This document shows, one piece after another, positions 53,547 through 58,405 of a DNA stretch of 64,000 bases. The translations under genes and the position numbers were made by a program. The stretch spans positions 4,526,001 to 4,590,000 of the forward strand of contig NZ_CP114288.1 of assembly GCF_027111335.1 (NCBI RefSeq). The letters run 5' to 3'. A model generated the notes under the pieces. It did not search any database, was not told the origin of the DNA, and was given only the letters and a program-made list of their open reading frames with translations. How positions within the stretch are numbered: position 1 is the first letter of the stretch; every line of letters begins with the position of its first letter. The stretch is from Flavobacterium aquiphilum. Its GTDB lineage: Bacteria; Bacteroidota; Bacteroidia; Flavobacteriales; Flavobacteriaceae.

Positions 53547-55652
53547 ATGGGAAATTACGTAATCAAGCGAAATGGCAAATACAAGCCATTTGAAAGTTAT
53601 AAAATCAAAGATGCTATTGAAAAAAGTTTCAAAAGCGCTTCAGTAGTTGTTGATGAAAGTGTTTATAACAGCATTATCATCCAGCTTGAAGCTGAAGAAG
53701 TATGGTCTGTCGAAGAAATTCAGGACATGATCGAAAAGAAGCTGTATGAAAAAAAGTATTTTGATGTAATGCGATCGTTCATGCTGTTTCGACATACCCG
53801 AAAATTACAGCGTGAGCATATAGCAGGACTGAATGATGACACTACTTATGTAGACAGCACTCAGACCATTCAGGAATATATTGAACAAACCGATTGGCGT
53901 ATCAATGCCAATGCCAATACTTCCTATTCAAATGCCGGATTAGTAAACAATGTGGCCGGAAAAATCATTGCCAATTATTGGTTGGATAAAGTATATTCCA
54001 AAGAAGAAGGTTATGCCCACCGCAATGGAGATATCCACATTCACGATTTGGATTGTCTCACAGGTTATTGCGCTGGCTGGAGTTTGCGTGTGTTGCTGAA
54101 CGAAGGCTTCAACGGTGTACGAGGGCGTGTGGAAAGCAAACCTCCCTCCCATTTTAGGGAAGCTTTGGGACAAATGGCTAATTTCCTTGGAATTTTACAA
54201 AGTGAATGGGCGGGTGCACAAGCTTTCAGTTCTTTTGACACCTATCTGGCACCTTATGTTTTCAAAGATAATTTAGGATTCGAGGACGTTTTAAAAGCGG
54301 TCAGAGGTTTTGTTTACAACCTGAATGTTCCCGCACGTTGGGGGCAATCACCATTTACTAATATCACTTTGGATTGGATTGTTCCTGACGATCTAAAAAT
54401 GCAAATTCCAACCAAAAATGACCATCATATATTTGAACTCAATAAAAACAAAGATTTATTAAGTAGAGCAAAAGAAAGAGGAGTAACCAAAGTAACCGAC
54501 TTGCGTTATGAGCATTTCCAAAAAGAAATGAACCTTATCAATAAAGCTTATTATACTGTAATGACTGAAGGCGATGCCAATGGACAGCCTTTCACCTTCC
54601 CTATTCCGACGGTGAATATTACCGAAGCTTTTGACTGGGATGGAGAAAACACCGATTTGCTTTTTGAAAATACTGCGAAAATTGGCTCTTCCTACTTCCA
54701 GAATTTCATTGGAAGTCAATATATTTTAGACGAAAATGGCAATCAGATTGAAAATGAGAATGCTTACAAACCTAATGCCGTTCGCAGTATGTGCTGCCGT
54801 TTACAGTTGGATTTACGAGAGTTACTAAAACGTGGCAATGGACTCTTTGGAAGCGCTGAAATGACTGGAAGTATTGGTGTAGTAACCATCAACATGGCAC
54901 GTTTAGGTTATCTTAATAAAGGAAATAAAGGGAAATTATACGAAGAATTGGATCATCTTTTATACATAGCCAAATCGACTCTGGAGAAAAAGAGAGTATT
55001 TATCCAAGAGATGTACGACCGCGGATTGTACCCTTACACAAAACGTTATTTGGAACATTTCAGAAACCACTTTTCAACTATCGGGGTGAACGGAATGAAT
55101 GAAATGATAGAAAATTTTACTAACGAAGAAGACAATGTAACCTCTGAAACCGGGATTGAATTTGCCTCAGAAATTCTGGATCACATTCGTAATAGAATGA
55201 AAGAATTCCAGGAAGAAACAGGAAATCTATACAACCTGGAGGCAACACCAGCCGAAGGAACAACGTATCGTTTTGCCAAAGAAGACAAAAAACGTTATGA
55301 CGACATTATTCAGGCGGGACAGGAAGAGAACATTTATTATACTAACAGCTCGCAAATTCCGGTAGATTTCACACAAGATCCGTTCGAAGCTTTAACATTG
55401 CAGGATCAATTGCAGTGCAAGTACACAGGAGGAACGGTTTTACACCTTTATATGAGCGAAAAAATAAGTTCACCCGAAGCGTGTAAACAATTTGTCAAAA
55501 AAGTGATTACCAATTTCAGGCTGCCATACATTACCGTAACACCAGTATTCAGCGTATGTCCAATGCATGGTTATTTGAACGGGGAACACGAATATTGCCC
55601 AAAATGTGATGAAATCATTATTGCCGAAAAAGCAAAATTTATTGAACTATAA
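53547..55652 (+). CDS. nrdD: Anaerobic ribonucleoside-triphosphate reductase, main part without glycyl-radical tail
   Basis: A 701-aa protein. Residues 1-90 form an ATP-cone (VIKRNGKYKPFESYKIKDAI). The catalytic barrel has the finger-loop Cys segments 'HIHDLDCLTGYCAGWSLR' and 'AVRSMCCRLQLDLREL', and 'ARWGQSPFTNITLDW' is typical. The zinc site near the end is VCPMHGYLNGEHEYCPKCDE. The protein stops 13 residues later, before the RVxGYxRP glycyl-radical loop that normally ends NrdD. That loop is encoded by a separate ORF at 55778-55945. The gene starts 31 bp behind ric. Makes dNTPs without oxygen. Confidence 0.93.
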   Translation: MGNYVIKRNGKYKPFESYKIKDAIEKSFKSASVVVDESVYNSIIIQLEAEEVWSVEEIQDMIEKKLYEKKYFDVMRSFMLFRHTRKLQREHIAGLNDDTTYVDSTQTIQEYIEQTDWRINANANTSYSNAGLVNNVAGKIIANYWLDKVYSKEEGYAHRNGDIHIHDLDCLTGYCAGWSLRVLLNEGFNGVRGRVESKPPSHFREALGQMANFLGILQSEWAGAQAFSSFDTYLAPYVFKDNLGFEDVLKAVRGFVYNLNVPARWGQSPFTNITLDWIVPDDLKMQIPTKNDHHIFELNKNKDLLSRAKERGVTKVTDLRYEHFQKEMNLINKAYYTVMTEGDANGQPFTFPIPTVNITEAFDWDGENTDLLFENTAKIGSSYFQNFIGSQYILDENGNQIENENAYKPNAVRSMCCRLQLDLRELLKRGNGLFGSAEMTGSIGVVTINMARLGYLNKGNKGKLYEELDHLLYIAKSTLEKKRVFIQEMYDRGLYPYTKRYLEHFRNHFSTIGVNGMNEMIENFTNEEDNVTSETGIEFASEILDHIRNRMKEFQEETGNLYNLEATPAEGTTYRFAKEDKKRYDDIIQAGQEENIYYTNSSQIPVDFTQDPFEALTLQDQLQCKYTGGTVLHLYMSEKISSPEACKQFVKKVITNFRLPYITVTPVFSVCPMHGYLNGEHEYCPKCDEIIIAEKAKFIEL

Positions 55653-55777
55653 AAAAAGTTTTAAAATGGTTTAAAGTTGTTTAAAAAAAGTTTAATACGG
55701 TTTAAACTCTTAAACAACTTTAAACCTTAAACTAAATTAATCCCTTAAACAATTTAAACTTTAAACCCTTAAAAGCT
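55653..55777. repeat. Long hairpin and TTTAAAC repeats splitting nrdD
   Basis: Perfect 17-bp arms GGTTTAAAGTTGTTTAA (55668-55684) and TTAAACAACTTTAAACC (55710-55726), with an inner AGTTTAA/TTAAACT stem, form a hairpin of about 24 pairs. More TTAAAC units (55727-55770) follow. There is no T tract after it. It separates the body and tail of NrdD. Confidence 0.85.
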
Positions 55778-55945
55778 ATGAAACTAACAACCAATCAGAT
55801 TTTAGCAGAAAATCAAGAATTGCGCACCAAATGTTTGGTGTACACACGCGTAATGGGCTATCATAGACCCGTAGAAAGTTTTAATATTGGAAAGAAAGGT
55901 GAACACAAACAACGAACCCATTTTACTGAAGGAAAGTGCTGTTAG
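55778..55945 (+). CDS. Separate glycyl-radical tail of anaerobic ribonucleotide reductase
   Basis: A 55-codon ORF with its own ATG (MKLTTNQILAENQELRTKC). Its second half, RVMGYHRPVESFNIGKKGE followed by an RTHF segment, is the C-terminal glycyl-radical loop of NrdD; the radical Gly is residue 27 (RVMGY). It lies in a different frame from nrdD, whose stop is 125 bases upstream, and its end overlaps the nrdG reading frame. Either a true small subunit that docks on the NrdD body, or the relic of a gene broken by the repeat. The intact motif and sensible start favour a functional part. Confidence 0.8.
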   Translation: MKLTTNQILAENQELRTKCLVYTRVMGYHRPVESFNIGKKGEHKQRTHFTEGKCC

Positions 55946-56615
55946 ACCCATTTATAGCCTAACACCTTTTACCTTATTGGACTATCCGCACAAATCAGCT
56001 TGCATCCTTTGGTTTGCAGGCTGTAATATGCGGTGTGTCTATTGTTACAATCCCGAAATTGTTTTTGGGAAAGGAATTATTTCATTCGAAAACGCAATCC
56101 AATTCCTAAAAAGCAGAAAAAATCTGCTAGACGCTGTTGTTTTTAGCGGTGGTGAATGTTTACTTCACAGAAAAAGTGTCGCTTTCATTAACGAAGTCAA
56201 GAATATGGGATTCTTGGTCAAAATTGACACAAACGGCTCGCAACCCAAAATACTCAAAGAACTCATCGACAAAAAACTTATCGATTATGTTGCATTGGAT
56301 TTTAAAGCCATGCCGGAAAACTTCGAAAAGATAACACAGTCAGAACTTTTTATTCCGTTCGAAAAGTCACTACATTTATTGCTTGAGAGCGAAGTTCCAT
56401 TTGAAGTGCGCACAACGGTACATTCCGATTTATTGAAGAAAGATGATATTCGACAGATGATTTCCTATTTGGAAAACATCGGTTATTTAGGAAATTACTA
56501 TATTCAGCATTTTAGGAATGAAGCGCCAACCATTGAAAAACTAGGGCATTCGTTCAGGGATTTGGAAAACGAAAATCTTTCAACAGAAAAAATCAAGGTG
56601 CATTTTAGAGGATAG
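55899..56615 (+). CDS. nrdG: Anaerobic ribonucleotide reductase activase, radical SAM
   Basis: A 238-aa radical SAM enzyme that forms the glycyl radical. The cluster motif is GCNMRCVYCYN (CxxxCxxC) near residue 40, followed by VFSGGECLLH (GGE motif). I chose GTG 55899 (reads NTNNEPILLKE), with a possible TTG at 55887; no ATG exists in this part. The start lies inside the 3' end of the glycyl-radical tail ORF, overlapping by 47 nt, which implies translational coupling with its substrate peptide. Confidence 0.88.
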   Translation: MNTNNEPILLKESAVRPIYSLTPFTLLDYPHKSACILWFAGCNMRCVYCYNPEIVFGKGIISFENAIQFLKSRKNLLDAVVFSGGECLLHRKSVAFINEVKNMGFLVKIDTNGSQPKILKELIDKKLIDYVALDFKAMPENFEKITQSELFIPFEKSLHLLLESEVPFEVRTTVHSDLLKKDDIRQMISYLENIGYLGNYYIQHFRNEAPTIEKLGHSFRDLENENLSTEKIKVHFRG

Positions 56616-57193: not shown

Positions 57194-58405
57194 ATGAGAA
57201 AACATTGGATATTAATTTGCTTCGCTAATTTTTTCATCGCTTCGCTAATGGGATTATTGCTCCGATGGATGTATGTTTCCCCGATTGAAGGAGTCAATTT
57301 TCAGTTTTTGATGCACGGGCATTCGCATGTTGCAATGCTGGGCTGGGTGTATATGATGCTTTATTGCTTGATATTTTACTCTTTTATCCCTGAAAAAGCA
57401 CAAGAAAAACCCATTTACAACAAATTATTTTGGGTAACGGAAATCGCAGTAATCGGAATGATGATTGATTTTCCTGCCCAGGGATATGCTTTTGTGTCGA
57501 TACTGTTTTCAACTTTACACATATTTTGCAGTTACTATTTCTGTTATTTAATTTGGAAAGACACTAAGTCAATTTCATTTCCCGAAAAGAAAATGTTACG
57601 CACGGCTTTATTTTTTATGCTGTTATCTACCGTTGGCGTTTGGTGTTTAGGGCCGGCAGTAGGACTGGCTGGAAAAGCAAGTGCCATTTACCAAATTGCG
57701 ATTCAGTTTTTCCTTCATTTTCAGTTTAACGGCTGGTTTCAGTTTGCGGTTTTAGCATTATTTTTCAAACAAGCAAAACTAACATTCGACGAGAAAAAAT
57801 TTAAGGTAATCTATAACCTGTTTGTAAGCGCAACAGTATTAACATTGGCTTTACCGGTAAGCTGGTATTTGTCTAATCCTATTTTTCATTGGATAAATGC
57901 AATTGGTGTGGTATTGCAATTGGTTTCGGCTGTTCGTTTTATCCAAATTGCCAAACCGCAATTACGCGAGTTCTTCTCCAATCTTTCTCCTTTGATAAAA
58001 ACCGTTTACGGATTTGCTTTATTTTCATTGGCTTTAAAAATTATCATCCAATTGGTTGTTTTAATTCCAGAACTGGCACAAGTTTCTCACGAGATTAGGA
58101 ATTTCGTCATTGGATATATTCATTTAACAATGTTGGGAATTATCACTGGATTCTTGTTTGGATTTGCCTTTCAAAATAATTTTCTAAATCCGAAAAATGG
58201 AATTCAGAAATGGGGAATGATTCTATTTCTAGTAGGATTTGTGGCAACTGAAATCCTTTTATTCCTTCAAGGTATTTGGCTGTTTTTGGACAAAGGATCA
58301 CTTCCAGATTATTATCTAAATTTATTTTTGTCAAGTATCTTTTTGCCTGTGGGACTTTTGATGCTGACAGTCGGCATTTTTAAACTTAAACCAAAAATTA
58401 TATGA
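57194..58405 (+). CDS. Twelve-span membrane protein with heme-copper-like His motifs
   Basis: A 403-aa integral membrane protein with about 12 helices. 'FLMHGHSHVAMLGWVYMML' (His41, 43, 45) recalls the MHGHYAFWGAY helix of NorB, and further membrane His occur in 'FFLHFQFNGWFQFAVL' and 'GYIHLTMLGIITGFLFG'. It may bind heme or copper, as a distant relative of the heme-copper oxidase subunit I or of NnrS. It is too short and its motifs too incomplete for an oxidase. It overlaps the CopD-like gene by 4 nt. Function unknown. Confidence 0.65.
   Translation: MRKHWILICFANFFIASLMGLLLRWMYVSPIEGVNFQFLMHGHSHVAMLGWVYMMLYCLIFYSFIPEKAQEKPIYNKLFWVTEIAVIGMMIDFPAQGYAFVSILFSTLHIFCSYYFCYLIWKDTKSISFPEKKMLRTALFFMLLSTVGVWCLGPAVGLAGKASAIYQIAIQFFLHFQFNGWFQFAVLALFFKQAKLTFDEKKFKVIYNLFVSATVLTLALPVSWYLSNPIFHWINAIGVVLQLVSAVRFIQIAKPQLREFFSNLSPLIKTVYGFALFSLALKIIIQLVVLIPELAQVSHEIRNFVIGYIHLTMLGIITGFLFGFAFQNNFLNPKNGIQKWGMILFLVGFVATEILLFLQGIWLFLDKGSLPDYYLNLFLSSIFLPVGLLMLTVGIFKLKPKII

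Follow-up and report, generated by a model that had tools for sequence, protein, structure and literature searches.

How does an anaerobic ribonucleotide reductase work when its catalytic chain stops short of the loop that should carry the glycyl radical? The question is raised by a stretch of 64,000 nucleotides from Flavobacterium aquiphilum (assembly GCF_027111335.1, contig NZ_CP114288.1, positions 4,526,001 to 4,590,000), hereafter the window, in which the class III reductase NrdD is encoded as a body ending in CPMHGYLNGEHEYCPKCDEIIIAEKAKFIEL and, 125 nt downstream and in a different frame, a 55-codon open reading frame (ORF), translated as MKLTTNQILAENQELRTKCLVYTRVMGYHRPVESFNIGKKGEHKQRTHFTEGKCC, which holds the loop. 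From sequence comparison and structural modelling, we propose that the two genes very probably encode a working two-subunit class III ribonucleotide reductase, in which the glycyl radical would reside on an obligate, separately made small subunit.

Both elements of the layout given in the initial annotation, namely, a 701-residue NrdD ending past its zinc site without the RVxGY loop, and a loop placed on a small ORF further on, were borne out by ORF translation and by Pfam. The RVxGY glycyl-radical loop was sought in the body and not found there, and this body matches the ATP-cone profile (E 1.4e-16), the NRDD barrel profile PF13597 (E 6.8e-164, profile positions 2-528 of 562) and PRK08270 (1079.2 bits, over the cut-off). 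The small-ORF product, which carries the loop (RTKCLVYTRVMGYHRPVESFNIGKKGEHKQR), matches NRDD positions 532-562 (E 7.8e-7, 28.6 bits vs a gathering score of 26.2), and the two translations thus tile a single profile with three positions left between them. PF13597 is its only match; PF01228 (Gly_radical) gave none at E up to 1, in a search where HMMER filters may drop very weak matches. As regards the features by which a class III NrdD is recognised, an NrdG-type activase is encoded in the operon, its frame overlapping the 3' end of the small ORF, and the loop lies on a separate ORF instead of the same chain (Table 1). PMC11226230 and PMC9531940 describe class III enzymes with the loop as part of the same chain, in line with what is expected of known NrdDs; the subfamily reported here departs from this.

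Table 1. Coordinates of the nrdD locus within the window
Feature	Position	Strand	Basis or remark
NrdD body, catalytic subunit, 701 residues	53547..55652	+	ATP-cone and barrel, stops after zinc site
Cys175 codon	54069..54071	+	Aligns with second catalytic cysteine Cys171 of P. copri NrdD; invariant in 63/63 rows
Cys417 codon	54795..54797	+	Aligns with radical cysteine Cys416 of P. copri NrdD; invariant in 63/63 rows
Zinc-site motif CPMHGYLNGEHEYCPKC, body end	55557..55607	+	Putative ligands
Spacer, 125 nt, AT-rich, GTTTAAA-type dispersed hairpin element	55653..55777	+	Stop codons in loop frame
Putative small glycyl-radical subunit gene, 55 residues, own ATG	55778..55945	+	ORF translation, Pfam, conservation, selection
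Gly27 codon of small ORF	55856..55858	+	Predicted radical glycine, in RVMGYHRP
nrdG-type radical S-adenosylmethionine activase	55887..56615	+	NrdG2 TIGR02495, 200.5 bits, over cut-off; start codon uncertain

The content of the genome bears on whether the small protein is needed at all. The assembly consists of one contig of 5,054,800 bases, with a single match to the NrdD body and a single significant match to the small ORF, an extra one being at chance level (E 0.526) and containing internal stops. No second NrdD was detected in this genome at E 1e-20, and a distant NrdD query at 1e-40 returned the same gene only; one aerobic- or B12-type large subunit (PF02867) is present. The small ORF might be viewed as an optional spare part comparable to GrcA/YfiD, repairing only NrdD molecules cleaved by oxygen, a reading that shares the logic of a free glycyl-radical protein and is helped by the statement that such parts are thought possible for other glycyl radical enzymes (PMC8683613). 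We nevertheless regard it as very improbable: since the body lacks a glycine loop and the genome search gave no second NrdD, the small protein would be required from the start; moreover, the small ORF matches the NrdD profile and not the pyruvate formate-lyase (PFL)-type Gly_radical profile, and the single PFL-type match of the genome keeps its Gly_radical domain on its own 756-residue frame.

The split is not a peculiarity of one strain. In a collection covering 299 genomes of the family, followed by order and class scans of 395 genomes each, NrdD was found in 5 of the 299 family genomes, the same five that carry the small ORF, and in 16 and 17 genomes of the order and class scans, respectively. 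These scans yielded 32 loci, namely, 25 split, five fused and two running off the fetched stretch. All 25 close homologues (same class, at least 74% identity to the window body; one, L024, is only a fragment of the body, located at the end of a contig) are split, which points to more than a chance arrangement, and the five fused loci are 25-28% identical to the window body. When 296 genomes of the phylum were scanned with a distant query, 16 gave matches, corresponding to eight fused loci (L208-L215) and eight split ones already collected. Six of these fused proteins from elsewhere in the phylum (L210-L215) resemble the split family in having a longer linker and an additional Cys ahead of the loop.

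Nine plasmid or phage regions, picked from 50 listed matches (127 and 2225 records held matches), comprise five fused loci and four split ones, the latter from Sulfuricurvum kujiense, Sulfuricystis multivorans, Cupriavidus necator H16 (pHG1) and Bradyrhizobium diazoefficiens. The NrdD of C. metallidurans CH34 is also split, with the small loop ORF after the body; Rmet_5137 and Rmet_5139 are named as the NrdDG of C. metallidurans in PMC2864759, and the small loop ORF would be Rmet_5138. According to the same source, complete denitrification in C. necator H16, whose NrdD is of the split type, requires NrdDG. A wider genome scan, biased towards the query as it consists of the best 80 of 583 confirmed stretches, gave 65 split and 11 fused loci, three without loop and one at a contig end. 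According to record titles, the split hosts include Acidovorax, Hydrogenophaga, Stutzerimonas stutzeri, several Pseudomonas, Duganella and Microbulbifer, as well as metagenome-assembled genomes (MAGs) of Acidobacteria, Elusimicrobia, Omnitrophota, Gracilibacteria and Zipacnadia. The 80 IMG/VR loci comprise 46 fused ones, 19 in which a separate ORF matches the loop (five of these ORFs lie upstream or at a distance of more than 700 nt) and 15 without a loop match (eight of them cut by the contig end). The search among relatives suggested at the outset found the split, with the small ORF kept, in many bacteria and some phages, and fused NrdDs as well.

Are the two genes truly separate? Considering the 94 split loci from the phylum (25), plasmid/phage (4) and wider (65) scans, all chosen by a loop search, all three frames with respect to the body are used by the small ORF (45, 27 and 22 loci), whose nearest ATG is located at -41 to +631 nt, counted from the body stop, and an NrdG-like ORF follows downstream on the same strand in 92. 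A Shine-Dalgarno-like stretch precedes this ATG in 57 of the 69 loci outside the class of the window. Eight genomes or records with loopless or distant-loop loci were searched further, and the loop was found in five of them (that of L129 was already known). In two bacterial genomes, it lies on a contig other than that of the body and abuts nrdG; there, the loop goes with the activase and not with the body.

These observations bear directly on the idea that the cell still produces a single chain, be it through programmed frameshifting, ribosome bypass, read-through of the stop or splicing of an intron or intein. This is very improbable, although most loci have body and loop side by side and examples of phage nrdD with an intron or intein inside have been described (PMC3653736). 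Neither the distribution of own starts over all frames and their frequent Shine-Dalgarno-like sites outside the window's class, nor the coexistence of overlapping starts with spacers of several hundred nucleotides, fits such a product, and a body and loop on different contigs cannot be joined by frameshift or read-through. A self-splicing intervening element was rejected on account of the own starts, the variable or missing spacer, the other-contig loci and the absence of any Rfam intron family in the window at the gathering cut-off, where four tRNAs are the sole matches.

The small ORF is under strong purifying selection, the outcome of the selection test that the initial annotation had called for: its 36-codon core in 24 sequences of the window's class shows a synonymous proportion (pS) of 0.785 and a nonsynonymous one (pN) of 0.061, i.e., a pN/pS of 0.078. 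For the body compared with that of the window, pN/pS ranges from 0.05 to 0.22 per pair, with synonymous sites often saturated. MGY is kept in 94/94 split small ORFs and a Cys four residues before TR in 93/94; this Cys is absent from at least two phage small ORFs (L132 and L148). Could the small protein then be a regulator, or a substrate tuning NrdG, next to a body that works glycine-free? That it accompanies nrdG even in genomes with the body on a different contig would agree with this, but such a role is very improbable, given that both barrel cysteines (radical and second) are invariant, that the loop still conforms to the consensus of NrdD, and that the chain of fused relatives includes this same loop. 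Lastly, a recent frameshift, insertion or assembly error that cut the end off a normal nrdD and left a dead enzyme, to which the dispersed AT-rich hairpin in the spacer could lend the look of an insertion, has next to no probability: the relatives are not fused with this strain alone split and its motif decayed, as a broken gene would imply, since the 25 close homologues and 65 of the best 80 others are split with the loop intact, the small ORF is constrained and its starts vary widely in distance from the body stop, evidence on which decay was rejected and an assembly error is very unlikely.

The structure prediction proposed for the body with the 55-residue peptide was run as a linked chain, and the loop docked confidently on the barrel, with the small-subunit glycine placed where characterised NrdDs have theirs. 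A larger alignment (A5) including loose small-ORF rows misaligned them and was left out of folding. A search of predicted viral structures returned viral reductases and, at rank 24, one 71-residue fragment of 67% identity annotated as an anaerobic reductase fragment.

We return to the two-subunit enzyme, whose putative mechanism is taken from the NrdD family. The large body would provide the ATP-cone, the barrel, the two catalytic cysteines and the zinc site, and the small protein the glycyl-radical loop with its C-terminal tail and nothing else. NrdG, encoded beside the small gene, would install the radical on Gly27, either on the small subunit alone or once on the body. The small subunit would dock on the barrel with the loop inside, so that Gly27 reaches Cys417 as does the loop of one-chain NrdDs, and the radical would then pass to Cys417 and onward to the substrate. 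The initial annotation had envisaged a docking of two proteins that brings radical and active site together, a view supported by the conservation, the purifying selection, the linkage to nrdG, the loops on other contigs and the linked-chain model.

Several points weigh against this proposal. For the model, both parts were joined in a single chain, the stops were replaced by serine and the alignment included fused relatives, and the predicted docking is therefore partly built in. A Shine-Dalgarno-like site precedes the small-ORF ATG in none of the 25 loci of the window's class, which thus give no positive sign of translation; the absence of such sites is usual for Bacteroidota. The loop search in the genomes or records of L065, L184 and the fragment L128 (three of the eight) gave none, and both cases of an unlinked loop are draft or metagenome genomes. 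Finally, at its 3' end the 36-codon core runs into the nrdG frame, a source of constraint unconnected with the small protein, and part of the constraint measured may thus be shared.

How did the split arise? A tree of bodies was built from 209 loci, reduced to 166 by dropping 15 fragments and removing near-copies, and trimmed of the zinc and loop region. In the FastTree result, one clade of 111 rows (support 100) contains 92 split, 14 fused and five body-only rows, and the 55 rows outside are 50 fused, two split (phage loci L189 and L207) and three unclear; 92 of the 94 split rows thus fall within one well-supported clade. A quick IQ-TREE tree of 70 rows agrees, with a clade of 57 rows (support 99) and six state changes. 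The fused rows nested among split ones belong to Actinomycetota, Maricaulis, Acidiphilium, a Desulfovibrio MAG, another MAG and, near the base, phage L151; the Maricaulis linkers contain RQPCEVWTR, resembling the start of split small ORFs. This sequence-based picture suggests that the split came first and fusion occurred again later, an order that is favoured and not proven, since approximately unbiased tests reject neither the grouping of all 25 fused rows in one clade (p 0.0523) nor that of the two Maricaulis rows with 13 outgroup rows (p 0.109) at 0.05.

In class III enzymes, the glycyl radical is the site of cleavage by oxygen (PMC3019208), and a likely benefit of the split would be that oxygen destroys only a small replaceable subunit. 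We tentatively entertain a broader scenario, which we judge somewhat less likely than not, combining an exchangeable radical subunit with a single origin. NrdG would charge the free small protein, charged subunits would move between NrdD bodies, oxygen damage would be mended by swapping a 55-residue protein instead of a 701-residue enzyme, and activity would also be set by the supply of small subunit; a single splitting event in a large subfamily would have been followed by spread to several phyla and to phages, and by re-fusion on several occasions.

With regard to known systems, one-chain NrdDs (P. copri 8p2s, T4 1hk8, T. maritima 4u3e) share the fold, the radical and second cysteines, the zinc site, the RVxGY loop and the NrdG activase with the window enzyme, and that of P. 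copri also the ATP-cone; in the window, however, a gene of its own encodes the half of the glycyl radical domain that comprises loop and tail, and the zinc half stays on the body. GrcA/YfiD of PFL, with which the initial annotation had drawn a parallel, is likewise a small free glycyl-radical protein docking into a glycyl radical enzyme, and YfiD/Y06I are the sole validated spare parts according to PMC8683613. The parallel stands for the chemistry but not for the role, as YfiD repairs an enzyme that had its own loop, whereas the NrdD body of the window never has one and no second NrdD was found in its genome; YfiD also differs in profile, partner and length (127 residues vs 55; PMC8683613). 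The split class II NrdJa/NrdJb of Pseudomonas aeruginosa, called the only split ribonucleotide reductase of a non-viral organism in PMC4520616, is also made of two conserved polypeptides, but it depends on B12, and its split-off part serves thiol exchange and not the radical (PMC4520616). Phage nrdD genes in pieces, split by introns, inteins or homing endonucleases, are described in six cases (PMC3653736); these concern intervening elements or unexplained fragmentation in single phages and are treated there as interrupted genes, in contrast to the constant break point, the small gene with its own start and the conservation across phyla seen here. Searches of the open-access literature gave no account of a bacterial NrdD whose glycyl-radical subunit is separate, and an earlier mention elsewhere is possible.

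As for the surroundings, the spacer hairpin folds strongly (z -4.60) and has 53 genome matches at E up to 1, itself counted, and probably belongs to a dispersed repeat family of this genome. Scans for sigma-70-type promoters and terminators were at chance level (14 found vs 15.1 expected and 3 found vs 2.9 expected, respectively). The neighbours of nrdD, which include a CbbQ/NorQ-type ATPase, a COX1-family protein beside a cytochrome c, an ScdA-hemerythrin, a hemerythrin and Rrf2 proteins, fit denitrifying or nitrosative conditions. A 403-residue ORF at 57194-58402, in this denitrification-like cluster, has no Pfam match at 1e-5.

Phage loci showed further peculiarities. The 196-kb record behind L152 carries a loop gene about 110 kb from the body (L234:811-1584, L235), interrupted by an ORF and ending with the loop half YHRPVETFN; we take the interrupting ORF to resemble a LAGLIDADG endonuclease or intein. 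In L046, a faecal contig labelled as phage, a fused NrdD bears a C-terminal extension with CPNC, presumably glutaredoxin-like. The phage bodies L157, L162, L192 and L184 stop at the zinc site or close to it, and no loop was found in the fetched flanks, nor was one matched in the whole record of L184. A group of phages (L130, L131, L133-L136 and L138-L142) has a split NrdD with a longer small ORF (77-96 codons between stops), the extra N-terminal part of which looks alike across members. NrdD frames of about 1,000 residues (L181-L183 and L187-L191) probably contain putative inteins.

Class III ribonucleotide reductases have been described with the glycyl radical on the catalytic chain, and a large, conserved split subfamily would represent a two-subunit glycyl radical enzyme. 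The split makes it possible to test how the activase gains access to a glycine buried in the barrel, whether the radical can be formed before assembly, and how facultative anaerobes limit oxygen damage. Small proteins of about 55-70 residues annotated merely as 'nrdD', as those of three plasmid records are without comment, are probably an essential part of the enzyme that is easily overlooked, and experiments on NrdD in bacteria of the split type need both genes.
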